Positions 13,258-63,238 of a stretch of 64,000 bases of DNA are shown here, piece after piece. The DNA lies in the NCBI GenBank assembly GCA_001657385.1, contig LYSZ01000002.1:124001-188000 (forward strand), read 5' to 3'. A program made the translations under genes and the position numbers. The DNA is from Parvularcula sp. BBD 1991-13. GTDB taxonomy: Bacteria; Pseudomonadota; Alphaproteobacteria; Caulobacterales; Parvularculaceae. The notes under the pieces are model-generated. The model was given only the letters and a program-made list of their open reading frames with translations. It did not search any database and was not told the origin of the DNA. Position 1 is the stretch's first letter. Each line of letters starts with the position of its first letter.

Positions 13258-13273
13258 AAATGGTATATCATTT
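13258..13273. promoter_or_regulatory. Catabolic operator copy 1 (AAATGGTATATCATTT)
   Basis: Exact match to the 16-bp repeated near-palindrome, ending 33 bp before the first TonB receptor start and in the gap shared with the YciI-like gene. The site is followed by a similar AT-rich TTGATATGACAAAT stretch. Confidence 0.8.
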
Positions 13274-13306
13274 ATTGATATGACAAATGCTCAGGGAGGG
13301 CGGCAA

Positions 13307-15790
13307 ATGAAGAAATCTATATGGTTCGGCGGTGCGGCGTCGCTGGCCCTGGCCGGGTTCGGCGCGTCTCCGGCGCTGTCGCAGGACGAAGAGGCGGCCG
13401 ATAATCGCGACATCATCACCGTCACGGCGCGCAAGCGCGAGGAAAACATCCAGGACGTGCCGGTCGCGGTCAGCGCCTTCACGTCGGAAGACCTGTTCGA
13501 ACAGGGCATTCAGAATATCGAGGACCTGTCGCGGCGCACGCCCGGCTTTGTCTTCGATACCCCGTTCGGGCGCCAGTTCGACCGGCCGATCATCCGCGGT
13601 CAGGCCAACATCCTCGGCGATTCCGGGGTCTCGGTCTTTATCGACGGCGTGAACGTGACCCAGTCGATCCGGTCCCTGAATTTCGGCGATATCGACCGTA
13701 TTGAGATCATCAAGGGACCGCAAAGCGCGCTGTTCGGCCGGAACACCTATTCCGGCGCGATCAATATCACGACGCGCCAGCCGACCAACGAATTCGACGG
13801 CGATCTCAGCTTTGAGGCGGGCGCGGACGGCCTTTACCAGTTTCTCGGGAATGTGCGCGGACCGATTATCGAGGACAAGCTGTTCTTCTCCCTGGCCGGA
13901 CGGGTCTATGACTTCGACAGCGAATTCGACGTTCCGGAGAACAAAAACCCTTCCGTCGGCAACGAGTCGTCGAGAAGCGTTTCCGGCGTTCTGAGATTTC
14001 TGCCCACCGACAACTGGGAAATCGTTTTCCGCGGCGCCTACAACGAAGACGACGACGGTCATTTTCCCATCAGCCTGCTGGGCTTCGAGGATCTCAACGT
14101 CAATGTGCCGGGCGGCGCGCAGCTCGGCGGCACGCAGCCTTTCTTCCAGGGGGAGGTGCCGGCGCTGTTTCCCTCGCCCAGCGGCTCCAGCCAGCTTTCC
14201 GATACGCTGGGCGAGGGCGGCGGCCTTGAGCGCGAGGAGCAGTTCTACGCCATCAACACCAATTACGAGTTCGGCGACGGCTATAACCTTTTCGCCACGC
14301 TCGGCTACACGAAGGAAAACTTCCGCGACGAGATCGATTCCGATGGTCAGCTGACGTCCTTCGCCACGGCGCGAATCTTTGGTCCTTTTCCGCTTTCGTT
14401 TGACAGCGGGGGGCAGCCGACGGCGTTCGGCGTCGGTCTGACGCCGTTTGACTTCACGACGACCGATGACGACGTACAGGAAACGTTCGTTGCGGAGATG
14501 CGTATAGACTCGCCTCAGGACCGCCGGTTTCGCTGGCGGCTGGGCGGCTATTTCTTCAGGAATGACCGCAGCGACCGGGATCTGCTGGGCCGTTTCAGGG
14601 ACCCCCGTTTCGAACAGGCCGCACTCGAATCTTTCGAGCAGGCCGAAGCGGAGATCGCGTCCGCCCTTGGGCAGTTCTTCGTCGTTCGGCTTTCGCCTTT
14701 CGATTACGGGCCCGTCGACCCGACAGACACCATCAACCGAAATGTTTCCGTGTTCGGTTCGGTCTATTATGACATTACGGACCGGTTGACGGCGACGGCC
14801 GAGTTGCGCTGGGCCGAGGAGGAAATCCGCCAGCAGGTTGTCGATTTCGACACCGGCGAGATCATCCAGCTCGACGGCGAGTCCGACGAGGTCAGCGCAA
14901 CATTTACCGCGCTTACGCCCCGCTTCATCCTTAATTGGCAGGCCACGGACGACAGCCTCCTTTACGCCTCCGCCGCGCGGGGCACCAAGCCGGGCGGCTT
15001 CAACGGCGCGCAAGGGTTTGAATTCGGCTTCGGCACCTTCGACGAGGAGACCAACTGGCAATTCGAGATCGGATCGAAAAACCTTTTCTTTGACAATCAG
15101 TTCCTGGTCAATGCGGCGTTCTTTTACTCCAGCCTCAGGGATTATCAGCTAACGGAAAACCTTGCCGCGCTTGGCGCCAACACCACCGTCGGCTCGGTCA
15201 CCGCCAATGTGGGCGACGCCGACATTTTCGGCCTGGAGCTTGAAACGTCCTATACGCCGAATATCCTCCCAGAGCTGACCATTGGCGGCACATACGCCTG
15301 GACCGATACGGAGTTTACCGCCGGAACGGAAGCGACCCAGGGCGCGGTCTTCGGCGACAGCTCCATTGTCGGACAGGAAATTCCCCGACAGGCGCGGCAC
15401 CAGGCGTCTTTCTTCGCCGATTACGACTACCAGATCAGCGAGCGGGTGGGCGCGCTGTTCTCGATCAACGGCAACTACCTGTCCAGTCGCTTCGCGCAGG
15501 TGCAGAACCTCGCTGAAACGGGCGAAGCCTTCGAGCTGGATGCGCGCATTACATTCGACCTCGACGACAAATACAGCCTGTCCTTTTACGGTAAAAACCT
15601 CACCAACGAGGATGCGCCGCTGGGCGTGCTGCGCTTCATCGACCCGAGCCCCGGAAACGGCAGCTTCGTCGTCAATGGACAAATTCCGTCTACCGCATTT
15701 AACCTTGCATCCGACGGTCAGTCGCGCGGGTTCCAGTACAACAACAGGCTTGGCGCGCGGTGGGGCGTGGTCGCCCGCGTCAGGTTTTGA
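13307..15790 (+). CDS. TonB-dependent outer-membrane receptor
   Basis: About 827 residues. A signal peptide (MKKSIWFGGAASLALAG… to about residue 25) precedes a TonB box (DIITVTARKRE), a plug domain (VPVAVSAFTSEDL … IRGQANILGDSGVSVFIDGV … IEIIKGPQSALFGRNTYSGAINI) and a 22-strand-type barrel ending in an aromatic residue (VVARVRF). AGGGAGGG lies just before the ATG at 13307; an in-frame ATG at 13280 is closer to the operator and has no ribosome site. It imports a large or scarce ligand using TonB energy. The catabolic operator lies 33 bp upstream, so the ligand is probably the substrate of this cluster; it is not identifiable from sequence. Confidence 0.93.
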   Translation: MKKSIWFGGAASLALAGFGASPALSQDEEAADNRDIITVTARKREENIQDVPVAVSAFTSEDLFEQGIQNIEDLSRRTPGFVFDTPFGRQFDRPIIRGQANILGDSGVSVFIDGVNVTQSIRSLNFGDIDRIEIIKGPQSALFGRNTYSGAINITTRQPTNEFDGDLSFEAGADGLYQFLGNVRGPIIEDKLFFSLAGRVYDFDSEFDVPENKNPSVGNESSRSVSGVLRFLPTDNWEIVFRGAYNEDDDGHFPISLLGFEDLNVNVPGGAQLGGTQPFFQGEVPALFPSPSGSSQLSDTLGEGGGLEREEQFYAINTNYEFGDGYNLFATLGYTKENFRDEIDSDGQLTSFATARIFGPFPLSFDSGGQPTAFGVGLTPFDFTTTDDDVQETFVAEMRIDSPQDRRFRWRLGGYFFRNDRSDRDLLGRFRDPRFEQAALESFEQAEAEIASALGQFFVVRLSPFDYGPVDPTDTINRNVSVFGSVYYDITDRLTATAELRWAEEEIRQQVVDFDTGEIIQLDGESDEVSATFTALTPRFILNWQATDDSLLYASAARGTKPGGFNGAQGFEFGFGTFDEETNWQFEIGSKNLFFDNQFLVNAAFFYSSLRDYQLTENLAALGANTTVGSVTANVGDADIFGLELETSYTPNILPELTIGGTYAWTDTEFTAGTEATQGAVFGDSSIVGQEIPRQARHQASFFADYDYQISERVGALFSINGNYLSSRFAQVQNLAETGEAFELDARITFDLDDKYSLSFYGKNLTNEDAPLGVLRFIDPSPGNGSFVVNGQIPSTAFNLASDGQSRGFQYNNRLGARWGVVARVRF

Positions 15791-15844
15791 CGGCGTTCCG
15801 GCCCGGCCGGCCCAGTTCCGGTTGCGGCCGACTCGCATAAAGAT

Positions 15845-15870: not shown

Positions 15871-15939
15871 ACGGATCAACCGATCACGGGCGACCATCCG
15901 GGCCGGTCGCCCTTGGTCTTTTTCTACGCGGTTCTTCCT

Positions 15940-16419
15940 GTGACGGATGAAATCAAACGGACAACCCTGATCGTGCGCGACGCGGAAGAGGCCGCTGCGT
16001 GGTACGAAGCGGTTTTTGGAATGACCCGCTGGATGGACACGCCCTTCACCCTTTCCGGGACCCAGCTCGCGGCGGGTCAAAAGGGCGACAAGACCCGCCT
16101 CGTCATCATGAAATGCCGGCACGAGACGATCGGCATGATCGGCCTTCTGCAATGGCTGGCGCCGGAACGCAGCGACGCGCCGCCGCAGCGGCCGCGCGAA
16201 ATCGCTTTCGGGGCGCCGATTTTCGTGGTCGCCGCGGACGACGCGCATGCGACCGCCGAGCGCGCGCGCCGGCTCGGTTCGACCATTCATTGCGAGCCCC
16301 GCCAATGGACCGTGACCGGCGCCGACGGCGCCGAGCGCGACATGATCGGATGTTCGTTCTGGGACCCGGACGGCTATTTTTTCGAAGTGAACCAGCTTGT
16401 GCGCATCCGCGAGCGTTGA
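15940..16419 (+). CDS. VOC (glyoxalase/dioxygenase) family protein
   Basis: About 159 residues with the paired beta-alpha-beta-beta-beta modules of the vicinal-oxygen-chelate fold: RTTLIVRDAEEAAAWYEAVFGM at the N-terminus and SFWDPDGYFFEVNQLVRI at the C-terminus, where the last Glu is the usual metal ligand position. VOC enzymes include ring-cleaving dioxygenases, lyases and isomerases. The GTG at 15940 is the likely start, as the protein then begins right before the domain; a TTG at 15913 is an alternative and neither has a clear ribosome site. It is probably co-transcribed with the next VOC gene and an MFS carrier behind the TonB receptor. Confidence 0.72.
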   Translation: MTDEIKRTTLIVRDAEEAAAWYEAVFGMTRWMDTPFTLSGTQLAAGQKGDKTRLVIMKCRHETIGMIGLLQWLAPERSDAPPQRPREIAFGAPIFVVAADDAHATAERARRLGSTIHCEPRQWTVTGADGAERDMIGCSFWDPDGYFFEVNQLVRIRER

Positions 16420-16480
16420 CGGCGCCGGCGTCGCGCCATTCGATCCGCGTGCGTCGATCGCATGGAGAACAGGGACCGAG

Positions 16481-16933
16481 ATGAGCGAAAAACCACAACT
16501 GCGTTTCCAGCGGGCCAACTTTGTCGTCGCGGATATAGAGCGTTCACTGACTTTTTATCGCGGCGTCCTGGGCTTTGAAGTAGCTTTTCGGCAGGGTCCC
16601 AATCCAGACAGCTATTCCTACCCTGTGTTCGACATACCCCCCGAGGCGACGCTCGGGTTTTGCGTGCTGTCGGCGCCGGACCAGCCGCGGGTGATGGCGC
16701 TCAGCGAGATCGCGGGTGTCCCGCTTGCGCCTGTCCCGCATCCGCGTCGCAGCGCCATCGTTCTCGACATGGCGGATCCGGACGCCGTTGTTCAGGGCGC
16801 CCGCGATCTCGATCTCAAGGTTTATCCGGAAGGCGCGCTCGTCACCCATGATGGCCGCAAGGGTCGGGAAATCGGCATCGCCGATTTTGACGACAACCTC
16901 GTCGTCATCTACCGCCTCGACGAGGGCGCGTGA
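16481..16933 (+). CDS. VOC family protein
   Basis: About 150 residues: RFQRANFVVADIERSLTFYRGVLGFEVAF opens the fold and the C-terminal module ends GIADFDDNLVVIYRLD, where the usual D-P-x-G-N motif is changed (DFDDN). The reaction is unknown. Its TGA overlaps the ATG of the following MFS gene (TGATG), which indicates translational coupling and suggests that the carrier's substrate or product is handled by this protein. It shares the upstream operon with another VOC gene. Confidence 0.75.
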   Translation: MSEKPQLRFQRANFVVADIERSLTFYRGVLGFEVAFRQGPNPDSYSYPVFDIPPEATLGFCVLSAPDQPRVMALSEIAGVPLAPVPHPRRSAIVLDMADPDAVVQGARDLDLKVYPEGALVTHDGRKGREIGIADFDDNLVVIYRLDEGA

Positions 16934-18303
16934 TGTCCGACGCTCCGGCGGCGCCGCGGGCGGGCCCGGCGCCTTACCCCGGTTCCGGGGCCTCGTGGTT
17001 CCTGGTGGCGATGCTCACCATCGCCTATGTGTTCAGTTTCGTCGACCGGTATATTCTCGGCCTGCTGATTGAACCGATCAAGGCTGATCTCGGTCTCAGC
17101 GACGAACAGATCGGCCTTGTCCTCGGTCCGGCCTTCGGTCTCATCTATGCGTTCAGCGGGCTCTTTATCGGCTGGTTCGTCGACAACTGGCGGCGCGCCT
17201 GGATTGTCGGCATCGGGATGACCGTGTGGTCTCTGGCGACGGCGTTTTCCGGACTTGCCGCGAATTTCTGGCAATTGTTCCTGGCCCGCATGACCATCGG
17301 CGCCGGCGAGTCGGTCCTCAGCCCTTCGGCGTTTTCCATGATCGCCGACAGTTTTCCGGAGCATCGGCGCGGCAAGCCGATTGCGTTCTACACCGCCGCC
17401 CTGACGCTCGGCGCCGGCATCGCCTCCCTGATCGGCGGCGGCGTCCTGTTATGGGCGAAAACGACCGACGGCGTGAGCCTGCCGTTTTTGGGCCTGCTCG
17501 CGCCGTGGCAGCTGGTTTTCATGACCGTGGGAACGCCGGGGCTCCTTCTGGCGGTCTATTTTTTTGTCGTCCGCGAGCCGGCGCGCCGCCCGACTGTCGG
17601 CGGCGACGCGGCGCTCCAGGGCGCCAGCGTCTTTCAAGCCTGGAGCTATGTGGCGAAGAACGGCGCGACCTATTTCACCTTTGCGTCGCTTGTCATGGTC
17701 ATGACCATTATCGCCTACAGTCAGGGATATCTGCCCTCCACCTTTGAGCGGGTCTGGGGCTGGGAGCGCGAACTTTACGCTTTCGCCAACGGGGCTGCGC
17801 TTCTCGTCATCGGTCCGGCGACCATTTTTTTCACCGGCTGTCTTTCTGATCGCTGGATGCAGGCGGGCGTGCGCGATGCGCCGTTCAGGCTGCTGGTCGC
17901 CGGCTATCTGGTCATGGCGCCCACGGGCGTCCTCGCCATGGTCATGCCGACGGGCGTGCTGGCCTTTGCGGTGCTGGGCCTGAACACGATCGGCATCGGG
18001 ATGATCAGCGCTGTGGGCGTAACGGCGCTCTTGCTGATCACGCCGTCGCAGATCCGCGGGCAGGCGCTCGCCCTTTACTACATGACGATCAGCCTTTCCG
18101 GCCTTTTCCTGGGGCCGACGACCGTGGGCGTTCTGTCCACGCGGGTTTTCGGCGAAGAGAACCTGAACCTCGCGGTGGGCGCGGCGCCGCTGATCTACGG
18201 CGTCGGCCCGCTTGTGCTGATCCCCGTAACGCGCCGGCTGTACCTGAAACAGATGGAACGGTTGCGCGCTGCCGACAGTGACGCAACGGCGGCGGCGACG
18301 TAA
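16933..18303 (+). CDS. Major facilitator superfamily transporter
   Basis: About 456 residues with twelve predicted membrane helices. It starts AYVFSFVDRYILGLLIEPIKADLGLSDEQIGLVLGPAF, the signature of the hexuronate/aromatic-acid-type MFS proteins common in Sphingomonadales and Parvularculales; the loop-2/3 motif is GWFVDNWRRAWIVGIGM. The start at 16933 overlaps the stop of the preceding VOC gene. It should import the cluster's substrate or an intermediate over the inner membrane. The substrate cannot be read from sequence. Confidence 0.88.
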   Translation: MSDAPAAPRAGPAPYPGSGASWFLVAMLTIAYVFSFVDRYILGLLIEPIKADLGLSDEQIGLVLGPAFGLIYAFSGLFIGWFVDNWRRAWIVGIGMTVWSLATAFSGLAANFWQLFLARMTIGAGESVLSPSAFSMIADSFPEHRRGKPIAFYTAALTLGAGIASLIGGGVLLWAKTTDGVSLPFLGLLAPWQLVFMTVGTPGLLLAVYFFVVREPARRPTVGGDAALQGASVFQAWSYVAKNGATYFTFASLVMVMTIIAYSQGYLPSTFERVWGWERELYAFANGAALLVIGPATIFFTGCLSDRWMQAGVRDAPFRLLVAGYLVMAPTGVLAMVMPTGVLAFAVLGLNTIGIGMISAVGVTALLLITPSQIRGQALALYYMTISLSGLFLGPTTVGVLSTRVFGEENLNLAVGAAPLIYGVGPLVLIPVTRRLYLKQMERLRAADSDATAAAT

Positions 18304-18402: not shown

Positions 18403-18418
18403 AAATGGTATATCATTT
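18403..18418. promoter_or_regulatory. Catabolic operator copy 2 (AAATGGTATATCATTT)
   Basis: Exact copy of the 16-bp operator, 57 bp upstream of the LeuC-type gene start, in the 172-bp gap after the MFS gene. Confidence 0.8.
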
Positions 18419-18475: not shown

Positions 18476-19897
18476 GTGGGCCGCACCCTGTTCGACAAGC
18501 TCTGGGACATTCACCGCGTCGCCGTCGACGACGACGGCGCGGCCTATATCGCCGTCGACCGCGTCTTCCTGCACGAACGCACCGGCGGCGTGGCGCTGAA
18601 ATCCCTGCTGGAAGCCGGGCGCCAGGTTAAAGCGCCGGACCGGGTGTTCTGCGTCATGGACCATATCGTCTCCTTCGCGGCCGGACGGGGGCGCAACGAC
18701 GCGCGTTCTCCCGGCGGCGAGACCTTCATTACGCAGACCCGGGCGATGGCGGAGAAAACCGGGATCGCGCTCATCGATACCGACGACCCGCGTCAGGGCA
18801 TCGTGCACGTCATCGCGCCGGAACTGGGCGTTGTCGCGCCCGGCGTTTCCATCGTCTGTCCGGACAGCCACACCTGCAGTCTCGGCGCGTTCGGCGCGCT
18901 CGCCATGGGCATCGGCTCCAGCGAGGCCGAGCATATCATGGCGACCGGCGTCATGCGCATTCACAAACCCGAACAGTTGCGTGTACGAATTGACGGCGTT
19001 TTGCCGGATGGCGTGTCCGCGAAGGATCTTGCGCTTCATCTTATCTCGGCTTACGGCGCGGACGGGGGCAAGCGGCGGGCGATTGAATTCTGCGGCGCCG
19101 CCGTGTCGGCGATGGACCCGGAGGCGCGCTTGACCCTGTGCAATCTCGCCGTCGAATTCGCGGCGTTCACGGCGCTGATCGCGCCGGATGAAAAGATACG
19201 CAATTATCTGCGCGGCCGCCCCCATGCTCCCTCCGGCAACCTTCTGGCCGCGGCTGAAGAACACTGGGCGGAGCTTTATACCGACCGGGACGCGGTTTTC
19301 GACGAAGAAATCCGGATCAATGCGGACCATATGGCGCCATTTGTCAGTTGGGGGACGAGCCCGGACCAGTGCGCGCCCGTGACCGGCGGCGCCCCGGATC
19401 TCGATGCGCTGGGGCCCGGGCGCGTCGACCGGGCGAGACAGGCGATGGCCTATATGGGATTCGCGCCGGGGACGCGGTTTGCCGACCTGCCGATCGACGG
19501 CGCCTTTATCGGTTCGTGCACCAATGGCCGTCTGTCCGACCTGCGTGCGGCGGGGGCCGTGCTCAAGGGGCGCACGGTCGTCGACGGCGTGCGCGCGGTC
19601 TGCGTTCCCGGCTCCCAGCGAGTGCGGGCCGAGGCCGAGGCCGAAGGGCTCGACGAGATTTTCAAAACCGCCGGTTTTGAATGGGGCGCGCCCGGCTGCG
19701 CCATGTGCTTCTATGCGGGCGGCGAGACTTTCGCCCCGAAAGCGCGTGTGGTCTCGTCCACCAACCGGAATTTCGAAGGCCGCCAGGGGCCGGGCGTGCG
19801 CACTCATCTCGCCAGCCCCGCCACGGTCGCGGCGAGCGCCGTCGCCGGACGGATCGTCGGGGCGTCGTCGTTAGGCGCGGCGGCGGGGGCGGCATGA
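18476..19897 (+). CDS. LeuC-type hydro-lyase large subunit (aconitase superfamily)
   Basis: About 473 residues from a GTG start preceded by GAAAGAGGAA, giving VGRTLFDKLWDIH as in LeuC N-termini. The three cluster cysteines are present: Cys348 in GSCTNGR and Cys408/Cys411 in PGCAMC, ligands of a [4Fe-4S] cluster. The family hydrates/dehydrates malate-type acids: isopropylmalate, citraconate/citramalate, maleate, dimethylmaleate. Leucine biosynthesis is unlikely here: no leuA/leuB is adjacent, the catabolic operator is upstream, and CoA-transferase and HMG-CoA-lyase-type genes follow. An alkyl-maleate hydratase is my inference. Its stop overlaps the small subunit start (ATGA). Confidence 0.85.
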   Translation: MGRTLFDKLWDIHRVAVDDDGAAYIAVDRVFLHERTGGVALKSLLEAGRQVKAPDRVFCVMDHIVSFAAGRGRNDARSPGGETFITQTRAMAEKTGIALIDTDDPRQGIVHVIAPELGVVAPGVSIVCPDSHTCSLGAFGALAMGIGSSEAEHIMATGVMRIHKPEQLRVRIDGVLPDGVSAKDLALHLISAYGADGGKRRAIEFCGAAVSAMDPEARLTLCNLAVEFAAFTALIAPDEKIRNYLRGRPHAPSGNLLAAAEEHWAELYTDRDAVFDEEIRINADHMAPFVSWGTSPDQCAPVTGGAPDLDALGPGRVDRARQAMAYMGFAPGTRFADLPIDGAFIGSCTNGRLSDLRAAGAVLKGRTVVDGVRAVCVPGSQRVRAEAEAEGLDEIFKTAGFEWGAPGCAMCFYAGGETFAPKARVVSSTNRNFEGRQGPGVRTHLASPATVAASAVAGRIVGASSLGAAAGAA

Positions 19898-20544
19898 CCG
19901 GACGGCTCCCTTTCCTGCGCCACCGCGGCGTCGCGGCGCCGTTGCTGGCCGATAATATCGATACGGATCAGATTATCCCCTCGCGGGAGATGAAAGCGGT
20001 CAGCCGCGAAGGTCTGGGCGGCGCCCTGTTCGCCGGATGGCGCTATCTGAGCCCCGGCGGGCGCGAGGAAAATCCCGATTTCATTTTGAACCGGCCAGCC
20101 TACCGCCAGGCGGCTTTTTTGCTGGGCGGGCGGAATTTCGGCTGCGGATCTTCCCGGGAGCATGCCGTCTGGGCGCTGAAGGATTACGGCGTCCTGGCGA
20201 TCATTGCGCCGTCCTTCGGCGAGATTTTTCTGGCGAATTGTATTCGCAACGGTCTTCTGCCCGTCGTCGCCGACGCGGATCTCGTCGCTCGCCTGGCGCG
20301 CTTGGTCGCAGAAGACCCCCGGGAACGCCTCCTTACCGTCGACCTGCCGGCGCAACGGGTTTCCATCGCCGGCGGGTCCGGTCTGGAATTCAGCTTCGAC
20401 ATTGACGCTTATTCAAAACGTCTGTTGACGGAAGGGCTCGACCCGATCGGGCTGACCCTTTCACGCCGCGCGGAGATCGACGCATTCCTGGCGGCCGATG
20501 CGGCGGAACGGCCCTGGATCTACGGCTCGGGAGAGGGCGGCTAG
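19894..20544 (+). CDS. LeuD-type hydro-lyase small subunit
   Basis: About 216 residues of the swivelling aconitase domain: ADNIDTDQIIPSREMK at the N-terminus and the substrate loop GRNFGCGSSREHAVWALKDYG, both diagnostic of LeuD. It completes the heterodimeric hydro-lyase with the preceding gene, whose stop it overlaps. The catalytic Ser-Arg in GCGSSREHA is intact. It is convergent with the CaiB gene, only 3 bp apart. Paired with CaiB and lyase genes it fits a (substituted maleate to malate) hydration step in a degradative path. Confidence 0.86.
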   Translation: MTGRLPFLRHRGVAAPLLADNIDTDQIIPSREMKAVSREGLGGALFAGWRYLSPGGREENPDFILNRPAYRQAAFLLGGRNFGCGSSREHAVWALKDYGVLAIIAPSFGEIFLANCIRNGLLPVVADADLVARLARLVAEDPRERLLTVDLPAQRVSIAGGSGLEFSFDIDAYSKRLLTEGLDPIGLTLSRRAEIDAFLAADAAERPWIYGSGEGG

Positions 20545-21799: not shown

Positions 21800-21815
21800 A
21801 TTTGGTATATCATTT
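21800..21815. promoter_or_regulatory. Catabolic operator copy 3 (ATTTGGTATATCATTT)
   Basis: Matches the repeated operator at 14 of 16 positions; the right half is perfect. It lies in the 99-bp gap between the divergent CaiB (start 21768) and HMG-CoA-lyase-type (start 21868) genes and could control both. Confidence 0.75.
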
Positions 21816-47604: not shown

Positions 47605-47616
47605 GAGGAGAACCGC

Positions 47617-53133: not shown

Positions 53134-53155
53134 CGCTGTCTATGCTACACAATTC

Positions 53156-53171
53156 AAATGTCCGGACAAAG
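53156..53171. promoter_or_regulatory. Second operator, copy B (AATGTCCGGACAAAG)
   Basis: Core TGTCCGGACA (53159-53168) with right arm AAAG, 12 of 14 matches to the palindrome at 46197-46218. It overlaps the ATG (53158) of the first MmgE/PrpD gene and is 23 bp from the divergent CoA-transferase start. Confidence 0.6.
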
Positions 53172-55919: not shown

Positions 55920-55929
55920 GGAGAAGGGT

Positions 55930-57324
55930 ATGGACGGGCACAGAACATATTTCAACGCGGTCGACTGGGCGGCCATGCAGGCGGAACACCCGGTGGGCGA
56001 CGCATTTACGAAGATGGTGACCGGAATTTCCCGGGACGAGTTGCGCGCGCGTCAGGAAAAACTCTTTATGCGGTGTGTTGAGCGCGCCTGGGCGACGCCG
56101 TTCTACCAGCGCCTGTGGAGCGCAGCCGGCGCACAGAAGGGGGATATCGCCTCGCTTGACGATCTGCCGAAGCTGCCGGTCTTCGACAAGCAGGATATCA
56201 TGGACTCGATCGCCGCCGCGCCGCCGATCGGGGATTTCGCCGGCTTCGAGAGCTACGCTGCGGGGGACAAGCCGCCGGTGATCTTTCACACGACGTCGGG
56301 CACGACGGGGACGCCGCAGGTGCTCCTGTTCGGACCGAAAAGCCGGGAGGTGCAAAACCTCCTGCTTGGCAGGCTGTACCGGTTTCAGGGATTGCGGCCC
56401 GACGACGTCGTGCACTCCGTTTACGGGCACGGCATGATCAATGGCGGCCATTATGTGCGCGAGGCCGTGATTCACTGGACGAGTGCGATCTTCATGTCCG
56501 CGGGCACCGGCGTTGAGACGCGCTCCGCAAGGCAGGTGGAGCTGATGCGCGATTTCCGGGCGACGGCGATCGTCGGGTTCGCCGACTACATAAAGAAACT
56601 CGCCGTTGTCGCCAGGGAGGCCGGCATCGAACCCGGCCGGGATATCAACATACGGATGATTTCCGGCCATCTCGGGCGCGAGGACAAGGCGTCCCTGTCC
56701 GAGAGCTGGGGCGGTGCGAAGTGCTTCGACTGGTACGGCGTCGGCGACACCGGCGCCATCGCCGGCGAGGGGCCGGATCAGGACGGTCTCTATGTCATGG
56801 AAGACGCGCAATATCTTGAAGTTTGCGATATCGACAGCCATGCGCCCGTCGAGGACGGCGAGGACGGCGACATGGTCGTGACCTGTCTTTACAAGGATGA
56901 TATTTATCCTATTATCCGGTTCAACACCCACGACGTGACGCGGGTGAGAACCGATGCGTCGACCATCGGTGCGACGTTCAGGCGGATCGAGGGGTTTCTC
57001 GGGCGCTCCGACAACATGGTGAAGATCAGGGGCATCAATATTTTCCCGCAGGCGATCGGTCCGCTGCTGGAGGAGGCGCCGGCTTTCGCCGGCGAATTCA
57101 TCTGCAAGGCGGTGCGGGATGCGGCGGGCCGGGATGATTTTATCGTCATCGCCGAAGCGAAGGAAAAGTCTCCCGCGGTTGTCGAAGCCTTTCAGGATAT
57201 TCTGAAGCGCAAGATCGGCATTGCGCCCATGGTCGAACTGGCGGACCCGGGATCGCTCGCGCCGTTGACGCAGACGGAGGTTCGGCAAAAGCCGATCCGG
57301 CTGATCGACGAGCGTTTTTCATGA
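55930..57324 (+). CDS. Phenylacetate-CoA-ligase-type AMP-forming enzyme
   Basis: About 464 residues of the PaaK group of adenylate-forming ligases: P-loop HTTSGTTGTPQVLLFG (residues about 118-133), then WYGVGDTGAIAGEG and KDDIYPIIRFNTHDVTRVRTD … GRSDNMVKIRGINIFPQAI, the C-terminal domain hinge. It activates an aryl- or other carboxylic acid to a CoA ester. AAGGAGAAGGGT precedes the ATG at 55930. The amidase gene follows by ATGA, and the enzyme would activate the acid released by that amidase or a neighbouring step. Confidence 0.88.
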   Translation: MDGHRTYFNAVDWAAMQAEHPVGDAFTKMVTGISRDELRARQEKLFMRCVERAWATPFYQRLWSAAGAQKGDIASLDDLPKLPVFDKQDIMDSIAAAPPIGDFAGFESYAAGDKPPVIFHTTSGTTGTPQVLLFGPKSREVQNLLLGRLYRFQGLRPDDVVHSVYGHGMINGGHYVREAVIHWTSAIFMSAGTGVETRSARQVELMRDFRATAIVGFADYIKKLAVVAREAGIEPGRDINIRMISGHLGREDKASLSESWGGAKCFDWYGVGDTGAIAGEGPDQDGLYVMEDAQYLEVCDIDSHAPVEDGEDGDMVVTCLYKDDIYPIIRFNTHDVTRVRTDASTIGATFRRIEGFLGRSDNMVKIRGINIFPQAIGPLLEEAPAFAGEFICKAVRDAAGRDDFIVIAEAKEKSPAVVEAFQDILKRKIGIAPMVELADPGSLAPLTQTEVRQKPIRLIDERFS

Positions 57325-58721
57325 GCGATGAGGTCGTCGCCGCGCCCGGCGCCGCGGGGGCAGGCGCTGAAAGGCTGGATGTCGCGCGGCTGGACGTTAC
57401 GGGTTTGGGCGCCGCCTATGGCGCGGGGCGCCTGACGCCGCTCGACGCGGTCGAGGCCTTCCTTGAACGGATAGACCGTTTCAATCCGGCGCTGAACGCC
57501 TTCCTCGCGTTGCGCAGGGACGCCGCGCTGGAAGAGGCGCGGGCGTCGACGGAACGATGGCGGGCGGGCGCGCCTTTATCGTCGCTTGACGGCGTCCCTT
57601 ACGGGGTCAAGGCCAATATCGCCGTTGAGGATTTGCCCTGGCATGGGGGCGTCGCCGCATACCGGGACCGCGTGGCGGAAAAAGATGCGGCCTGCGTCTC
57701 CCTGTTGCGGAAAGGCGGCGCCATCGCGCTGGGGACCTTGAACATGCATGAGGGCGCCCTGGGCGCCGTCACCGACAACCCCCATTTCGGCAGATGCGGC
57801 AATCCGTGGAAAGAGGGCGCGACGCCCGGCGGCTCGTCCGGCGGGTCGGGCGCCGCGGTCGCCGCCGGGTTGTGCGCTTTCGCCCTGGGCACCGACACCA
57901 TGGGCAGCGTGCGCATCCCCTCGGCTTATTGCGGGATCGCGGCCCACAAGCCCAGCAAGGGGGCTGTCCCCGCCGAGGGGCTGATCGATCTTTCGCCGAC
58001 GCTGGATCATATCGGTCCGCATGCGCATACAATCGCCGATCTGATGGACATTCTTCCGGTGCTGACGGGCCGTCCGGCGGCGCCCGCATCTGCTGCGCCC
58101 GCGCCGATCGACCTGCGTATCGGGATCGCTTTCTGGGGCGGCGCCGTCGATGTCGACAGCGCCGTCGCGGAGGCTCACGAGGAAGCGAAGCGCATTGCGA
58201 AACGGATCGGGCCGACGGCGCGCGTCGATCTCTCCGGCATCGATTTCGGCGCCTTTCGCCGCAAGGGGCTGCTGGTCAGCGAAGTCGAGGGCTTTGCGGC
58301 GCATCAGCCCATGCTGGCGCGGCGCCCCGAGGGGTTCTCGCCGGCGTTTCGCGACCTACTGGAATGGGGCGCCCGCCAGCCGCCGGAGAAAATCGACGCC
58401 GCCTATGCCGGCATTCGCCTTGCCGGGGCGCGGCTCGCGGCGCTTTTCGCCGAGGAACGGGTTGACGTGATCATGACCCCGGCGACGCCCCAGGGGCCGT
58501 TCGATTTCGCCGATGCTGTTCCCGCCAATCAGGCCGACTTCACCGCGATGGCGAACTTTGCCGGCGCGCCGGCGACGGTCCTGCCGGCGTCGCGTCGCGG
58601 CGCGCCGCCGGCGTCTGTGCAATTCATCGCGCCGAAAGGCCGGGACGACATCGCCCTGGCGGCGGCGCGCGCATTCGAAGAGGCCCGGGGCGAGGCGCCG
58701 CGTCCGCCGGGATATTTCTGA
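57321..58721 (+). CDS. Amidase-signature family amidase
   Basis: A 466-residue amidase-signature enzyme: Lys97 in YGVKANI, the cis-Ser in GGSSGGSGAAVAAG (residues 170-183) and the nucleophile Ser196 in TDTMGSVRIPSAYCG. One conserved Gly of the GTDTGGS segment is Met194, a minor change. It hydrolyses a carboxamide to acid plus ammonia. The ATG overlaps the ligase stop (ATGA). Placed between a PaaK-like ligase and amide/imide hydrolases on the opposite strand, it fits half-amide hydrolysis. Confidence 0.9.
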   Translation: MSDEVVAAPGAAGAGAERLDVARLDVTGLGAAYGAGRLTPLDAVEAFLERIDRFNPALNAFLALRRDAALEEARASTERWRAGAPLSSLDGVPYGVKANIAVEDLPWHGGVAAYRDRVAEKDAACVSLLRKGGAIALGTLNMHEGALGAVTDNPHFGRCGNPWKEGATPGGSSGGSGAAVAAGLCAFALGTDTMGSVRIPSAYCGIAAHKPSKGAVPAEGLIDLSPTLDHIGPHAHTIADLMDILPVLTGRPAAPASAAPAPIDLRIGIAFWGGAVDVDSAVAEAHEEAKRIAKRIGPTARVDLSGIDFGAFRRKGLLVSEVEGFAAHQPMLARRPEGFSPAFRDLLEWGARQPPEKIDAAYAGIRLAGARLAALFAEERVDVIMTPATPQGPFDFADAVPANQADFTAMANFAGAPATVLPASRRGAPPASVQFIAPKGRDDIALAAARAFEEARGEAPRPPGYF

Positions 58722-58722
58722 C

Positions 58723-59505
58723 CTACCGCGTGGGAAAGTCGGCTTTGCGCTTTTCCAGGAACGCCTTGTAGCCTTCCCTGAAATCCTCGCCCTCGAACGC
58801 CTCCAGCATCAGCGCTATCGCTTCGGCAGCGTCGTCCGGAACGCCATCCTTCAGCATACGCAGGGTTTTTCGGGTCGCGCGGATGGACCATTGCGACAGG
58901 GCGGCGATTTGCGCAGCGAAGCCGGCGGTTTCCGCTTCCAGCGCGTCGTCGGAATAAAGGCGGTCGCAAAGCCCCATCCGCCGCGCTTCGTCCGCGTCGA
59001 TCAGGCGCGCGGTGAGCAACAGATCCCTGGCGCCGCTGACCCCCGCGGCGGCGGCGAGCCGGCGCGTATCGGCGAGGGAATAGACGAGGCCGAGCTTGCC
59101 GGGCGTTACGCCGAACCGGGCGGACGCGCCGGCAAAGCGAAAATCGCAGGCGAGCGCGATGGAGCACCCGCCGCCGACGCATGAGCCGGCGATCCTGGCG
59201 ATGGTCGGTTTTCCGCATGTCTCCAGCCGTTTCAGGCCGTCCAGCATGGTTTCGGTATAGCGCCGGGCCGTTTCCGCGGTTGCGTACACTTCGGCGAATT
59301 CGCTGATGTCGGCGCCGGCGGCGAAATGCCCGCCCTCGCCGCGCACGATGATGACGGTCGCGCCCTTGTCCGCTTCCGCCTCGGCGACGGCGCCGGCAAG
59401 GCTCGCCCACATAGCGGCGCTGACGGCGTTGCGCCGGTCCGGCTGGTTGAGAACGATCTCGCCGACCGGCGATCCGGAACGATAATGGAGGGAGGCCTCG
59501 GTCAT
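58723..59505 (-). CDS. Enoyl-CoA hydratase/isomerase family protein
   Basis: A 260-residue crotonase-fold protein: VIIVRGEGGHFAAGADISEFAEVYATAE (oxyanion-hole Ala-Gly-Ala-Asp), IARIAGSCVGGGCSIALACDFRFAGASARFGVTPGKLGLVYSLADTRRLAAAAGVSGARDLLLTARLIDADEARRMGLCDRLY. The GGGC segment replaces the more common GGGxE at the first catalytic position, so hydratase activity is uncertain and isomerase/hydrolase or other activity is possible. It ends 1 bp from the convergent amidase gene and starts 16 bp after the nitrilase-fold gene. Confidence 0.85.
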   Translation of the reverse strand: MTEASLHYRSGSPVGEIVLNQPDRRNAVSAAMWASLAGAVAEAEADKGATVIIVRGEGGHFAAGADISEFAEVYATAETARRYTETMLDGLKRLETCGKPTIARIAGSCVGGGCSIALACDFRFAGASARFGVTPGKLGLVYSLADTRRLAAAAGVSGARDLLLTARLIDADEARRMGLCDRLYSDDALEAETAGFAAQIAALSQWSIRATRKTLRMLKDGVPDDAAEAIALMLEAFEGEDFREGYKAFLEKRKADFPTR

Positions 59506-59521
59506 ATAATCTGCCTGCTGT

Positions 59522-60655
59522 CTATTTGATGACCCCGTCCCTGACGAGGCGGTCGATCACCGCCTGCTGCGCGGCGATGGCGTCGGCCCGTTCGACCATT
59601 TTGCCGTCGGGCGTGCGGTTCGCGGCCGCGACGATGCGCCCATAGCCTTCGCCGAACGCGCTCATGGGCAGGCGTGAGAGGAAATTCGACATGCCGGTCT
59701 TGCGGCGCGCTGCGCGCAGGCCGTCGAGGTCGATCACCGCGTTGGCGTTCATCGTCTCGCCGGGATAGGTTTGCGCGACGACGGCGCCTTTCCAGTCGAC
59801 GATTTTCGACATGCCGTCGGTGGAGGCCGCAGGCACCGCGGTTCCCGTGATGGCGGCGGAATTTGCCGAGACCACATACGCCATATTCTCCAGCGCCCGG
59901 GCGCGCTTGGCGATGTCCTTGGGCGTCAGGCCCGGCGCGCCGACCTCCGATGTCGGGTGGAGCAGGATTTCCGCCCCGTTCAGCGCATGCATGCGGGCGA
60001 TTTCCGGATACAGAATTTCCTCGCTGGCGATCGTGCCGAGAACGCCAAGCTCGGTTTCCACGGTGGGAAAAATCGCCTCGGCGCCATAGCGCTCAAGATA
60101 GGCGTCCCATACATCGTAGGGGCTGGGCGAGTAAAGCGAGATCATCCGGCGGTAGCGCAGCACCGCCTCGCCCGAGGGCGCGTAGATCACGTTCGCCTGG
60201 AAATAGAGGTCCGGAAACGCCGGATCGTTCTCGTAATGGTTCGAGCACAGATAGACGCCGAATTTCTTCGCCACCGCGCCGATCATGCCGGAGAACTCCC
60301 CGTCCATGTCGATGACGGCCTTGTCCTGCCATTCCTCGCGCGTCTCTCCCAGGGGGAAGCCGGTCATCCAGTATTCCGGCAGCACGACGAGTTTCAACTC
60401 GTAACCGTTGAAGCTTTTCAGGAACCCTTTCGAGGCGGCGATCTGGCCCGTCACGCGGCCGACCGCCGCGCGCATCCGGTCGCGCGCGCCCTCGCGGGTT
60501 GTGTCCTGGTTCACCGCCTCGCAGACGGTCTGCAGCGCAAGCGCCGAATAGCGTTCAAACGGGCCGGGTCCGGCGGTCGCGGCGGCGTTTGCGGCGGGCA
60601 GGGTCATAAAAGCTCCGAAGACGGCGGATGAAGCGAGAAACGAGCGGCGGTTCAT
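59522..60655 (-). CDS. Exported nitrilase-fold protein with altered catalytic triad
   Basis: A 377-residue carbon-nitrogen-hydrolase fold protein with a twin-arginine-type leader (NRRSFLASSAVFGAFMTLPAANA). The family triad Glu-Lys-Cys reads Glu94 (LPEYWM), Arg170 (RYRRMI) and Ser211 (TIASEEILYPEIAR): both the Lys and the nucleophilic Cys are replaced. It is therefore probably inactive as a classical nitrilase/amidase, or uses Ser, or serves as a binding protein. It is translationally coupled (ATGA at 60652-60655) to the upstream deacetylase-type gene. Confidence 0.8.
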   Translation of the reverse strand: MNRRSFLASSAVFGAFMTLPAANAAATAGPGPFERYSALALQTVCEAVNQDTTREGARDRMRAAVGRVTGQIAASKGFLKSFNGYELKLVVLPEYWMTGFPLGETREEWQDKAVIDMDGEFSGMIGAVAKKFGVYLCSNHYENDPAFPDLYFQANVIYAPSGEAVLRYRRMISLYSPSPYDVWDAYLERYGAEAIFPTVETELGVLGTIASEEILYPEIARMHALNGAEILLHPTSEVGAPGLTPKDIAKRARALENMAYVVSANSAAITGTAVPAASTDGMSKIVDWKGAVVAQTYPGETMNANAVIDLDGLRAARRKTGMSNFLSRLPMSAFGEGYGRIVAAANRTPDGKMVERADAIAAQQAVIDRLVRDGVIK

Positions 60656-61563
60656 TGGCAGGCGTCCGTGACGGCGGAAACCCTATCGAGCATGATGTCG
60701 CCGTCCCGCGCCAGCGCGCCGAGAATATCGCGCACCGCCCACAGGCGATAGGGAAGCCCGGCGACATAAGGCGTCATCGTAAAGCCGAAGGCGCCGGCGC
60801 CGTAGCGCGCCGCTTCGGCTTTCATCATCGCGGCGGCTTCCAGAACCTGGTCGCGCCAGAGATCCTCCGGGTGGCGCTTGGCGGTGAGGATAAACCGGTC
60901 GTCGAGTTCGTTCAGCACCGGAAAGGCCGTCACCGCGCCCGCGCCGGCGGTCATGGCGACCGGCGCCCGGTCCGGCTCCCAGTCAAGGCAGATATCGAAC
61001 CCGGCGTCGCGGATGAGGTCGAGGGTTGCGAAGCTCTGCTGGCGCGCCGGGCTCATCCATGCGCGCGGAGAAAGCCCCGCCTTGTCGAAGGCCGCCCGGG
61101 TCTCGGCGACATAGCGCTTTTCCGTGTCGGGATCGACGCCGCTCCAGTGGATGCTGTCCGTGTCGAGACCGTGCGCCGCGAATTCGTGCCCCGCCTCGGC
61201 GATGGCGTCGATAAGCGGCCGGACGCGGTCCAGCAAAACCGCGTTGACGACGAATGTCGCGCGGACGCCGGCGCCGGCGAACGCCTTGAGCAGGCGGAAG
61301 GCGCCGACGCGGTTGCCGTAGTCGCGGGTCGTGTAGTGGCGAAGATCCGGATAGGGCGTCGCCATCGCGCCCGGATGCTTGAACGGTTCGCCGCTGGGGT
61401 TCAGCATGAAGTATTCCAGGGGAACGACAATCGAAACGCCCAGCGCCTCGCCGCCCTTCAGCGCTGTTTTTTTTCTCTCGACGACAGGCCGCCATTGGTA
61501 TCGTTCGTGATCCATGCCGCGCCGGCGTTTCGGGTAGGACGTGTAATCGTCGGGCAGGGTCAT
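60652..61563 (-). CDS. Polysaccharide-deacetylase/PuuE-type hydrolase, copy B
   Basis: About 303 residues of the NodB-fold group: LGVSIVVPLEYFMLN, RDYGNRVGAFRLLKAFAGAGVRATFVVNAVLLDRVRPLIDAIAEAGHEFAAHGLDTDS, WMSPARQQSFATLDLIRDAGFDICLDWEPD. The His of EFAAHG is the metal-ligand position. It lies between a second PuuE-type paralogue and the nitrilase-fold gene, joined to both by ATGA overlaps, so all three come from one transcript. Opening of a cyclic imide or ureide is the likely class of reaction. Confidence 0.72.
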   Translation of the reverse strand: MTLPDDYTSYPKRRRGMDHERYQWRPVVERKKTALKGGEALGVSIVVPLEYFMLNPSGEPFKHPGAMATPYPDLRHYTTRDYGNRVGAFRLLKAFAGAGVRATFVVNAVLLDRVRPLIDAIAEAGHEFAAHGLDTDSIHWSGVDPDTEKRYVAETRAAFDKAGLSPRAWMSPARQQSFATLDLIRDAGFDICLDWEPDRAPVAMTAGAGAVTAFPVLNELDDRFILTAKRHPEDLWRDQVLEAAAMMKAEAARYGAGAFGFTMTPYVAGLPYRLWAVRDILGALARDGDIMLDRVSAVTDACQ

Positions 61564-62513
61564 GACGCCGCTCCATGTCCGGCGAACCCGGTTCCCGGCC
61601 GGGACTGGCCGCGCCGGTCGATGTCGGCGAGAGTCTGGTCCCAGTAATGCTCGCGGTAATGGCCGGCGATCTCCGCGCCGGTCGTGATCCACACATCCTC
61701 CCCGTGGGAAGCGATGTGTTTCAGCGCTTCCTCGAACGGGCGGATGCGGTGGGGCTGACTGACGAGATAGGCGTGCAGCGGAATGCACATGACCGTGCCG
61801 GAGGTCTCGCCTTCCGAGAGGAGTTCGTCGAAATGGCGTTTGAGGATGTCCGCATAGCGCCAGGGCGACATTGCTTGCGCGCCGTAGGTGATGACGTCGT
61901 TCACCTCAAGGGAGTAGGGCATGGAAATCAGTTTGCCGGTCCTCGTCTTGACGGGCTGGGGCTGATCGTCCTGGAACAAGTCGCAGGTATACCAGAAATC
62001 ATATTCGGCGATGAGGTCGAAGGTGCGCTCCGTATGCGTCAGGGCCGGCGCAAGATAGCCGCGAATCCGCTTTCCGGTCGCCTTTTCAACGGTGTTGATG
62101 GAGTCCTCCAGAACAGCGCGTTCCTGCGCCTCGCTCATGCCGTAAGAATAGCGCGTGTTGTAGACCCCATGGGAGAAAAACTCCCAGTCCCGCGCGGCGC
62201 ACGCCTCGATGATCTCCGGGTGGTGATCGCACAGGGCGACGTTGAGCGAAATCGATCCGCGCATGGCGTATTTGTCGAGCAGCTCCATCAGCCGCCAGTG
62301 GCCGACGCGATTGCCCCAATCGCGCTGGGAATACGCGGTCACGTCCGGCGCGGGCCGGGGCCAGCCGGGACGCGACGGATTGGCCGGCGGGTCGAACTCG
62401 TAGAACTCGATATTCGGCGCGATCCAGAAGGCGAGTTTCCCGCCGCCCGGCCATTCGATCCGGGGGCGGTCCTTGTAGGGCCAGTAGTCGTAGAGATTGG
62501 GATCGGCCTGCAT
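61560..62513 (-). CDS. Polysaccharide-deacetylase/PuuE-type hydrolase, copy C
   Basis: About 317 residues: FWIAPNIEFYEFDPPANPSRPGWPRPAPDVTAYSQRDWGNRVGHWRLMELLDKYAMRGSISLNVALCDHHPEIIEACAARDWEFFSHGVYNTRYSYGMSEAQERAVLEDS, YLAPALTHTERTFDLIAEYDFWYTCDLFQDDQP. This is a close match in layout to PuuE-type allantoinases and cyclic-imide hydrolases. Its start overlaps the stop of the isochorismatase-like gene (TGATG), and its stop overlaps copy B. It probably opens a ring amide/imide, giving a half-amide for the neighbouring amidase-type enzyme. Confidence 0.76.
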   Translation of the reverse strand: MQADPNLYDYWPYKDRPRIEWPGGGKLAFWIAPNIEFYEFDPPANPSRPGWPRPAPDVTAYSQRDWGNRVGHWRLMELLDKYAMRGSISLNVALCDHHPEIIEACAARDWEFFSHGVYNTRYSYGMSEAQERAVLEDSINTVEKATGKRIRGYLAPALTHTERTFDLIAEYDFWYTCDLFQDDQPQPVKTRTGKLISMPYSLEVNDVITYGAQAMSPWRYADILKRHFDELLSEGETSGTVMCIPLHAYLVSQPHRIRPFEEALKHIASHGEDVWITTGAEIAGHYREHYWDQTLADIDRRGQSRPGTGFAGHGAAS

Positions 62514-63202
62514 CACCGCGCCTCCAGCCTGTCCACAACCTCGCCCACCGGCGTCACGTCGGCGTATTTCAGTTGCAGGTCGGTGAGATTGGCGAAGTGA
62601 TAGCTTTCATGTTTGTCGGCGACGCATTCTTCCGGCACGATCGTCCGGTAGCCGTGGGACAGGCTGTCGACCGCGGTGGCGCGCACGCAGCCCGAGGTGG
62701 AGCCGCCGGTGACGACGAGCGTGTCCACTTTGTGCCAGGTGAGGTAGCTCGCCAGCGGGGTTTCGAAAAACGCGCTCGGCATCCGTTTCGTGTAGATCAT
62801 GTCCACATCCTCGTCGATCTCGCAGCGCGGATCGAAAGCGTGGCGCTCGGATGCGTATTTGATGTTTTGCAGGCTGTCCGGCGTATCCGTCCGCGTGCCC
62901 CACACGCCCGCGTCGCCGCCATCGGCCTTGTAGGCGACGCGCGACCAGATCACGGGCATGCCCCTGGCGCGGGCGAGCCGCGAGATGTCGTTGACGAAAC
63001 CGATCTGGTTCGGATGCGTTACATAAGCGGTCTTCGGAAACAGATCGGGCCGGGTGTAGGCCTGCTGGAAATCGACATTGACGATCGCCAGCTTCTCGCC
63101 GAACCCGAACCGGGCGCGCGCCGGGTTGGCCTTGACCTCCTCGTAGATTTCGCGGGCCGTCTTGCCCGGACAGGCCATGGTGGGCTCGAAGCTGAGACTC
63201 AT
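62513..63202 (-). CDS. Isochorismatase-fold amidohydrolase
   Basis: About 229 residues of the isochorismatase/cysteine-hydrolase family with the full triad: Asp44 (VNVDFQQAY), Lys139 (YTKRMPSAF) and Cys172 (TSGCVRATAVD). Related enzymes hydrolyse N-carbamoyl- or half-amides such as maleamate (NicF-type) and nicotinamide. The start at 63202 is chosen because GGAAGG lies 9 bases upstream; the ATG at 63211 touches the ribosome site. It is the first gene of a five-gene leftward operon under operator copy 11. Amide hydrolysis after ring opening by PuuE-type enzymes is a natural order. Confidence 0.86.
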   Translation of the reverse strand: MSLSFEPTMACPGKTAREIYEEVKANPARARFGFGEKLAIVNVDFQQAYTRPDLFPKTAYVTHPNQIGFVNDISRLARARGMPVIWSRVAYKADGGDAGVWGTRTDTPDSLQNIKYASERHAFDPRCEIDEDVDMIYTKRMPSAFFETPLASYLTWHKVDTLVVTGGSTSGCVRATAVDSLSHGYRTIVPEECVADKHESYHFANLTDLQLKYADVTPVGEVVDRLEAR

Positions 63203-63222
63203 CGCTGACATCCTTCCCGTTT

Positions 63223-63238
63223 AAATGGTATATCATTT
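63223..63238. promoter_or_regulatory. Catabolic operator copy 11 (AAATGGTATATCATTT)
   Basis: Exact copy of the operator in the 97-bp gap between the isochorismatase-like gene (start 63202) and the divergent Na+/solute symporter (start 63300). The ATG within it opens an in-frame reading frame into the symporter. Confidence 0.8.

Follow-up and report, generated by a model that had tools for sequence, protein, structure and literature searches.

The closest described counterpart of the system considered here is NagR/YvoA of Bacillus subtilis with its dre-sites. According to the available text of PMC4333415, Arg48 of NagR reads the guanine at position −4 of the operator and Arg38 the one at −5; the spacing of the half-sites, counted between the contacted guanines, is six nucleotides, and natural sites lack perfect symmetry, combining one GG half with a weaker one. 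For the HutC subfamily, the available text of PMC4494728 describes GTMTAKAC as the usual but not required operator, lists exceptions, and links an arginine at position 28 of the helix-turn-helix (HTH; numbering of that paper) to G/C in HutC sites. Here, we describe the palindromic operator AAATGRTATAYCATTT and its probable reader GntR1 in a window of 64,000 nucleotides from Parvularcula sp. BBD 1991-13 (GenBank assembly GCA_001657385.1, contig LYSZ01000002.1, positions 124,001 to 188,000 of the forward strand); all coordinates below refer to this window. An earlier note, made from the letters of the window, had proposed that eleven copies of a near-palindrome define a catabolic regulon under one GntR/HutC-type repressor. 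This finding is correct and stronger than first claimed, as the regulon is conserved and the regulator assignment is good. Systems in which a HutC-type regulator is paired with palindromic operators are ordinary; what makes this one interesting is the uncharacterised pathway that it delimits: an operator and a likely regulator can be assigned to a cluster that reaches from 13.3 to 63.2 kb, comprises approximately 45 genes and has counterparts in Hyphomonadaceae, Parvularculaceae and Caulobacteraceae.

GntR1 has the same domains as NagR. It passes the cut-offs for the N-terminal GntR winged HTH (PF00392, 74.5 bits vs. 27) and for the C-terminal UTRA domain (PF07702, 111.3 vs. 23.8 bits), and stays below the NCBIfam equivalog cut-offs for PhnF (115.9 vs. 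156.8) and HutC (113.7 vs. 220). The closest solved proteins are 2ra5, NagR/YvoA (phmmer E-value 1.6e-22) and DasR. In an alignment with NagR, for which residues were numbered by hand, GntR1 retains Arg48 and Gly69 of the wing, and Arg38 is replaced by Gln, which is found in 35 of 36 aligned GntR1 rows, with Ala in one (L019). The operator has the consensus core G-R-TATA-Y-C, with the outer G(−4) and C(+4) six nucleotides apart as in the dre-sites and mostly T/A at −5. Retention of Arg48 and exchange of Arg38 would be in step with these bases at −4 and −5. Asymmetry is likewise shared with the natural dre-sites, seven copies being the identical asymmetric 16-mer of GG/GA form in either orientation. 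In contrast to the dre-sites, a purine occupies −3, and approximately eleven sites are spread over an unrelated pathway. With the HutC-subfamily regulons in the available text of PMC4494728, the locus has in common palindromic sites and single sites in divergent gaps, although the form is mostly GT-N4-AC there and GR-TATA-YC here; the names Caulobacter and Hyphomonas have no occurrence in its available main text. The GntR/HutC reading of the earlier note needs a correction here: the motif does not have the usual GT-N4-AC form of HutC palindromes and is a variant, G-R-TATA-Y-C, that shares the spacing of the outer G and C.

UxuR-type operators of the FadR subfamily have the form AAATTGGTATACCAATTT and share an A-rich palindromic look with the present sites around GGTATACC. 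An operator of this type was nevertheless dismissed, since the regulator here, unlike in that subfamily, carries a UTRA domain and the outer guanines are six nucleotides apart as in NagR.

Operator sites and their conservation

When AAATGRTATAYCATTT was sought across the window at up to three mismatches, eleven matches were obtained (seven exact, two with one, one with two and one with three mismatches), at all eleven positions that the earlier note had named (Table 1), while 100 dinucleotide shuffles yielded 0.08 matches on average and one at most. The expanded site at 32466–32489, AAATGATATAATGTCATATCATTT, is picked up through its right half, at 32474; both of its outer halves are perfect and lie 8 bp too far apart. 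In the whole genome (4.24 Mb, 36 contigs), a pattern search, as opposed to a matrix scan, found 19 places with up to three mismatches. All ten with at most two mismatches are inside the window; the nine with three comprise 32474 and eight places on other contigs, which are at about background, judged by the seven places that the reversed pattern finds genome-wide. Scattering over the genome, which the earlier note had named as evidence to the contrary, was hence not seen, and the shuffles together with the confinement to the window rule out that the motif is a product of chance or a genome-wide repeat.

Genes were called from Pfam and NCBIfam scans and frame analysis, and start codons were set from Shine-Dalgarno signals and alignments of relatives. 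Under these models, all eleven sites are intergenic in a region (12,676–63,240) with an intergenic share of 5.4 %, a measure that is partly circular because the longest open frames of the genes for the LeuC-like hydratase subunit (LeuC), a family III CoA-transferase (CoAT3a), an HMG-CoA-lyase-like protein (HMGL), a DUF1838 protein and a membrane protein would run over their sites. The nearest start is 20–71 bp away, and 113 bp separate one site from the FAD amine-oxidase-like gene (FADox), the more remote member of a divergent pair, in accordance with the 20–115 bp given before. The sites at 13258, 21800, 37463 and 41473 lie in divergent gaps; a fifth, 63223, may do so as well, its right neighbour gene being ambiguous. 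Ten of 13 non-convergent gaps of at least 45 bp between listed genes hold a site; the three without one are those between the TonB-dependent receptor gene TBDR1 and VOC1, between GntR1 and the DUF3598-like gene DUF3598b, and between the latter and the LysR gene. HMGL and DUF1838 are each headed by a site.

Promoter-like elements with ten of 12 matching letters were found at two genes. At HapK, the −35 half of TTGGTA-17-TATAAT falls within the operator at 41473–41488, while at TBDR1, TTGACA-18-TTTCAT stops just upstream of the operator. The remaining 12 of 14 upstream regions score 7–9 of 12 letters. Occlusion of RNA polymerase is therefore something that we infer.

Conservation was scored for each gene across 15 genomes including the window, counting sites with up to two mismatches within 200 bp upstream and leaving out rows in which the gene was below 40 % identity or not found, lacked its N-terminus or lay at the edge of a stretch. 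The leader genes for HapK, the methyltransferase (MTase), CoAT3a, HMGL and DUF1838 carry a site in every genome scored, the leader genes for an isochorismatase-family protein, VOC3, MFS2, the membrane protein (memb), FADox and the TonB-dependent receptor TBDR2 (6/7) in most of them, and LeuC in five of nine (Table 1). None was found upstream of the internal genes SDR (0/13), CE4a (0/14), ACAD (0/14), CoAT3b (0/14), PaaK (0/15) and CE4c (0/13); occasional sites occur at the otherwise internal genes PrpD1 (3/14), DUF3598a (2/5), ADHred (1/12), HpcH (1/13) and MaoC (1/14). The reversed pattern scored zero for every gene. In 13 of 14 relatives' regions, the same gene blocks are rearranged, with sites heading the runs; the G227 region holds only the nitrilase, GntR1 and FAD_ALDH genes and no site. 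An alignment of HapK upstream regions from 19 genomes (row L114 shortened) presents the operator as the conserved block, plus one G near the start codon. The recurrence of the same palindrome at the same leader genes across genera identifies, at the level of sequence comparison, a real conserved regulon. In the window genome, the TBDR2 operator is split by eight extra bases; it is intact in the six other genomes scored.

Sites are also present where the cluster is split. In the single-contig genome G065, cluster genes are located at approximately 0.28–0.30, 0.77–0.80 and 2.50 Mb, and each location has operators, including one at a lone membrane-protein gene. Further sites are present at 0.73 Mb, ahead of VOC-protein and thiolase genes, and at 1.53 Mb. 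Sites thus mark pathway membership even for scattered genes and can guide the choice of deletion and assay targets. Extra sites in G165 adjoin a second DUF1838 gene, a 3-hydroxyacyl-CoA dehydrogenase gene and a pair encoding PNPOx-like and amidohydrolase proteins; they do not settle the substrate, since others adjoin genes for an HrpB helicase and a prolyl oligopeptidase, without an evident link.

Could the 16-mer be a repeated element, such as a mobile palindrome, a REP-like repeat or a shared promoter box, instead of an operator? The letter identity of seven asymmetric copies in either orientation would be expected of such an element. However, the flanking sequence differs from site to site, the copies in the window genome are restricted to the promoter gaps of a single cluster, these gaps hold sites in other genera as well, and presence tracks GntR1 (see below), which makes this explanation extremely unlikely.

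The reader of the sites

Within the order, 398 genomes were searched, and 67 of them, the own genome included, have a GntR1 match (E≤1e-40). In the 30 of these 67 matches whose neighbourhoods were counted, no more than 1.5 kb separate GntR1 from a site with up to two mismatches at 19 of the 21 closest loci, again including the own one, and at none of nine more distant loci; the reversed pattern was never found. In a search of 49 genomes with AAAWGRTATAYCWTTT, allowing one mismatch, 7–25 sites turned up in 19 of the 21 genomes (the own one counted) whose GntR1 match reaches E≤1e-80, and 0–7 sites in each of 13 genomes with a distant GntR1. Among 15 same-genus genomes without GntR1, in which the presence of the cluster was not looked for, 12 have no site and three have one.

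A second set of genomes, several of which are also among these 49, was assembled via the cluster itself. GntR1 as sole query had no match in a search of named genomes; from a second search, with an alignment of the conserved MaoC protein, the best 80 of 230 loci were kept. These 80 belong to, among others, Henriciella, Hyphomonas, Hirschia, Marinicaulis, Parvularcula, Caulobacter, Brevundimonas, Phenylobacterium and Niveispirillum. GntR1 and sites were sought in the whole genomes behind 45 of the 46 MaoC loci with a HapK match, 44 of the 45 also having CE4a; left out were L144, a second Caulobacter endophyticus strain without a site at HapK, and L098, L104, L108 and L135, which have a site and no HapK in the stretch. 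All 14 genomes with a close GntR1 (E≤1e-84) carry 7–25 sites, compared with none of the 11 genomes without GntR1 (E≤1e-40). The occurrence of sites thus tracks close GntR1, in support of the earlier assignment of the regulator and of one regulator for a multi-operon catabolic regulon. Very probably, GntR1 reads the AAATGRTATAYCATTT operator and represses the units of the cluster.

The other candidates are GntR2, the LysR protein or a factor whose gene lies elsewhere. Like GntR1, GntR2 belongs to the UTRA type; it is part of the cluster in many genomes and occurs in 17 of the 19 site-bearing genomes of the 45, while nine of the 11 genomes without GntR1 lack GntR2 as well. Yet, GntR2 (E≤1e-25) is missing from two site-bearing genomes (G415 and G432, with ten and four sites), 15 of the 32 genomes that have it are devoid of sites, two of these 15 lacking GntR1, and no site lies within 200 bp of its gene in nine of nine genomes scored. 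LysR had no match in the 14 relatives' regions, a genome-wide search for it not having been made. A factor elsewhere that co-varies with GntR1 would be compatible with the data. Altogether, we regard a reader other than GntR1 as improbable, GntR2 being disfavoured by its poorer co-occurrence with the sites and LysR by its absence from the relatives' regions.

Several observations weigh against GntR1 as the reader or against the evidence for it. The upstream gap of GntR1 itself has no recognisable site in the window (best match with five mismatches), and only three of 15 genomes scored have a site within 200 bp of the gene; in two same-genus relatives, a site stands on each side of it. At −3/+3, the operator core does not have the T/A that is typical of HutC sites (consensus GTMTAKAC), despite the same G(−4)/C(+4) spacing, and some relatives' sites have a G at −5 (AAAGGATATATCATTT). 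Two genomes, G120 and G031, have GntR1 matches of 59 % and 54 % identity, yet only one and two sites; most of the cluster is missing from the stretches compared. Four of the 25 sites in G165 could be background (control, four). Among the 20 of the 45 genomes with an intermediate GntR1 (46–51 % identity), four have 4–7 sites, one has a single site, and the consensus is absent from the other 15. Furthermore, the counts are not independent because the class without GntR1 consists of eight Caulobacter genomes and three metagenome-assembled genomes of 1.8–2.3 Mb, and some of the GntR1 absences may be assembly gaps; one of the three (L106) retains the HapK palindrome of the Brevundimonas type, and incompleteness thus contributes.

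In several of the intermediate genomes, HapK is preceded by related but changed palindromes, for example, AAATGATATAGGATTA, AAATGGTCTATGTTTA and TAATGATATATCAATA, with one or two weak copies at most at other promoters, as expected if operator and regulator had drifted jointly. The search for a palindrome common to nine more distant GntR1 loci yielded no more than weak, mutually unlike candidates. A different palindrome, ATTTGACCGGACAAAT, is found near GntR1 in two related genomes (L004:1450, L006:1452). Eight Caulobacter genomes (L090–L092, L095–L097, L103 and L113) have the HapK-MaoC-PaaK part of the cluster and neither GntR1 nor the operator; there, this part is therefore under another regulator or none. 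In three genomes (G379/G424, G230/G413 and G426), the GntR1 match contains one TGA, perhaps a natural stop inside the matched stretch.

With GntR1 as the reader, regulation could proceed as follows. At approximately eleven transcription units, a GntR1 dimer would occupy the palindrome, overlapping or adjoining the core promoter, and keep the unit repressed until an intermediate of the pathway binds to the UTRA domain and releases the protein. Release would then jointly switch on uptake by the two TonB receptors and two MFS carriers, hydrolysis of the ring, activation with CoA and the lyase steps. In this scheme, we infer binding by GntR1, repression over activation, the inducer and the substrate.

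Gene content and possible substrate

Table 1. Operators and genes in the window, with the evidence for each operator (sites within 200 bp upstream, as genomes with site/genomes scored).
Feature	Position	Strand	Evidence
Operator AAATGGTATATCATTT, 33 bp before TBDR1 (ATG 13307)	13258..13273		Pattern scan, gene models
Operator before LeuC (start ~18476)	18403..18418		LeuC 5/9
Operator, two mismatches, CoAT3a/HMGL divergent gap	21800..21815		CoAT3a 9/9, HMGL 9/9
Operator before VOC3-reductase-hydrolase-DUF3598a run	26212..26227		VOC3 10/12
Operator between GntR1 and FAD_ALDH	29669..29684		FAD_ALDH 4/15
Expanded operator before TBDR2	32466..32489		Mismatch-free site in 6 other genomes scored
Operator before DUF1838 gene (ATG 34967)	34924..34939		DUF1838 5/5
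Operator, FADox/MFS2 divergent gap	37463..37478		FADox 5/6, MFS2 8/10
Operator, MTase/HapK divergent gap	41473..41488		HapK 13/13, MTase 12/12
Operator before memb (ATG 45469), head of HpcH-MaoC-ACAD-CoA-transferase run	45395..45410		memb 7/9
Operator before isochorismatase-CE4c-CE4b-nitrilase-ECH run	63223..63238		Isochorismatase 12/13
TonB-dependent receptor TBDR1	13307..15790	+	
VOC1, VOC2, MFS1	15913..18303	+	
LeuC-like and LeuD-like hydratase subunits	18476..20544	+	
CoA-transferase family III (CoAT3a)	20548..21768	−	
HMG-CoA-lyase-like gene (HMGL)	21868..22827	+	
DUF3598-like calycin protein (DUF3598a, 22855–23373), alpha/beta hydrolase, zinc-type reductase, VOC3	22855..26154	−	
FAD_binding_4 oxidase fused to aldehyde dehydrogenase (FAD_ALDH)	26571..29597	−	
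GntR1, HutC-type regulator (GntR winged HTH and UTRA), proposed repressor; open frame reaches 30613	29741..30532	−	
Second DUF3598-like protein (DUF3598b)	30656..31126	−	
LysR regulator	31265..32209	+	
TonB-dependent receptor TBDR2	32541..34766	+	
DUF1838 protein	34967..35860	+	
FADox (−), MFS2 (+), unknown-family protein with signal-like start (+)	35913..39809		
Small conserved protein, methyltransferase (MTase)	39824..41413	−	
HapK-like, SDR, CE4a (PuuE-like), VOC4, CMD, CpeT-like (44661–45314)	41552..45314	+	
Membrane protein (memb), HpcH/RipC-like lyase, MaoC, ACAD, two CoA-transferases III	45469..51106	+	
GntR2, second GntR/UTRA regulator, no nearby site	51109..51825	−	
Acetyl-CoA hydrolase-type CoA-transferase (−); PrpD1, PrpD2, PaaK-like ligase, amidase (+)	51829..58721		
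Isochorismatase-family amidohydrolase, CE4c, CE4b, nitrilase-family, ECH	58723..63202	−	

The enzymes of the cluster (Table 1) can be read as a route that would start with imide or amide hydrolysis to a branched unsaturated diacid, followed by LeuCD-type hydration, CoA transfer and C−C cleavage by HMGL and the RipC-like HpcH protein. HMGL passes the cut-off of an HMG-CoA-lyase subfamily, while HpcH resembles RipC below cut-off (219.7 vs. 375). None of the CE4 proteins passes the cut-off of the PuuE allantoinase model TIGR03212 (424.6): CE4a scores 239.9 and CE4c 119.5, and CE4b has no match at 1e-10. The isochorismatase-family protein resembles N-carbamoylsarcosine amidohydrolase. Judged from the predicted functions, the enzyme set would suit disubstituted maleimides, which perhaps originate from the oxidation of pyrroles or tetrapyrroles. 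Presumably, hematinic acid, as the imide of a methyl-homoaconitate-like acid, would fit the LeuCD-type hydratase.

A comparable arrangement is encountered on plasmids. In the three plasmid records examined out of 30 matched (L169, L170 and L171), from Burkholderia plantarii, Sphingomonas JE1 and Sphingobium TomTYG65, an isochorismatase-CE4-CE4 module adjoins LeuCD-like hydratase genes and a gene of the PEP-mutase/isocitrate-lyase family, and both sphingomonad plasmids carry CoA-transferase and HMGL genes in addition; these two count as one case because their gene order is nearly identical. The combination of the module with LeuCD and a C−C lyase is a hint of a mobile imide-degradation module. 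A related logic is known from the 2,3-dimethylmaleate branch of nicotinate fermentation, which employs the DmdAB hydratase and dimethylmalate lyase. The window shares with this branch a LeuCD-like hydratase and a C−C lyase, and the plasmid relatives carry LeuCD-like and PEP-mutase/isocitrate-lyase-family genes; in contrast, a CoA-transferase and an HMGL-type lyase stand beside LeuCD in the window, along with imide/amide hydrolases.

Three cluster proteins are of the CpeT or DUF3598 type, so that two DUF3598-like proteins and one CpeT-family protein occur within one catabolic cluster. The CpeT-like protein passes PF06206 (73.0 vs. 21), its best solved relative being the chromophore lyase CRL (E-value 2.6e-5 over 48 residues). 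Against PF12204 (DUF3598, cut-off 22), DUF3598a scores 19.3 and its paralogue DUF3598b 22.9. The model of DUF3598a (pLDDT 92) matches BFA1 (5yvf) best, then the DUF3598 protein 2o62, Ycf58 (3bdr), which we take to be a member of the bilin-lyase family, and nitrobindin, with TM-scores of 0.54–0.61 on the query and many general lipocalins following. HapK is weakly like the REDY-like protein 2jdj.

On this basis, a tentative and rather doubtful proposal is a single-repressor regulon dedicated to the aerobic breakdown of tetrapyrrole pigments or of their maleimide fragments (hematinic acid, methylvinyl- or ethylmethylmaleimide), which would supply carbon and nitrogen. It would be common to Hyphomonadaceae, Parvularculaceae and Brevundimonas, the operator having drifted in the last of these, and would operate via calycin-type bilin binders, PuuE-like imidases and a LeuCD/CoA-transferase/HMGL route for methyl-homoaconitate-like acids. 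The main weakness of a tetrapyrrole substrate is that no tetrapyrrole-cutting enzyme was identified among the cluster genes. We lean slightly toward a regulon that is correct and a substrate that is another one, i. e. a nitrogen-containing natural product, a hydantoin, a ureide or an aromatic compound. Both PuuE and N-carbamoylsarcosine amidohydrolase, which the CE4 and isochorismatase-family proteins resemble, act on ureides; the several VOC proteins, the PaaK-like ligase and the flavin oxidase-aldehyde dehydrogenase fusion could serve an aromatic substrate; and the best fold match of DUF3598a is BFA1, not a bilin lyase. On the other hand, the plasmid module with its LeuCD, PEP-mutase-family and, in two plasmids, CoA-transferase and HMGL neighbours fits substituted maleates better than ureides, and the three CpeT or DUF3598 type proteins also speak for the pigment or maleimide route. 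If the substrate is indeed a tetrapyrrole or maleimide, aerobic recycling of abundant pigment nitrogen and carbon would become testable. Among the literature matches listed, judged mostly by abstract openings, no paper deals with the cluster, with such a bilin or maleimide catabolic cluster in bacteria, or with the operator.

Finally, FAD_ALDH is a single fusion protein of 1008 amino acids in the window, the halves of which match as separate stretches in G303, G165, G026, G279 and G065. This suggests that the FAD oxidase and the aldehyde dehydrogenase are encoded by separate genes in these five genomes.

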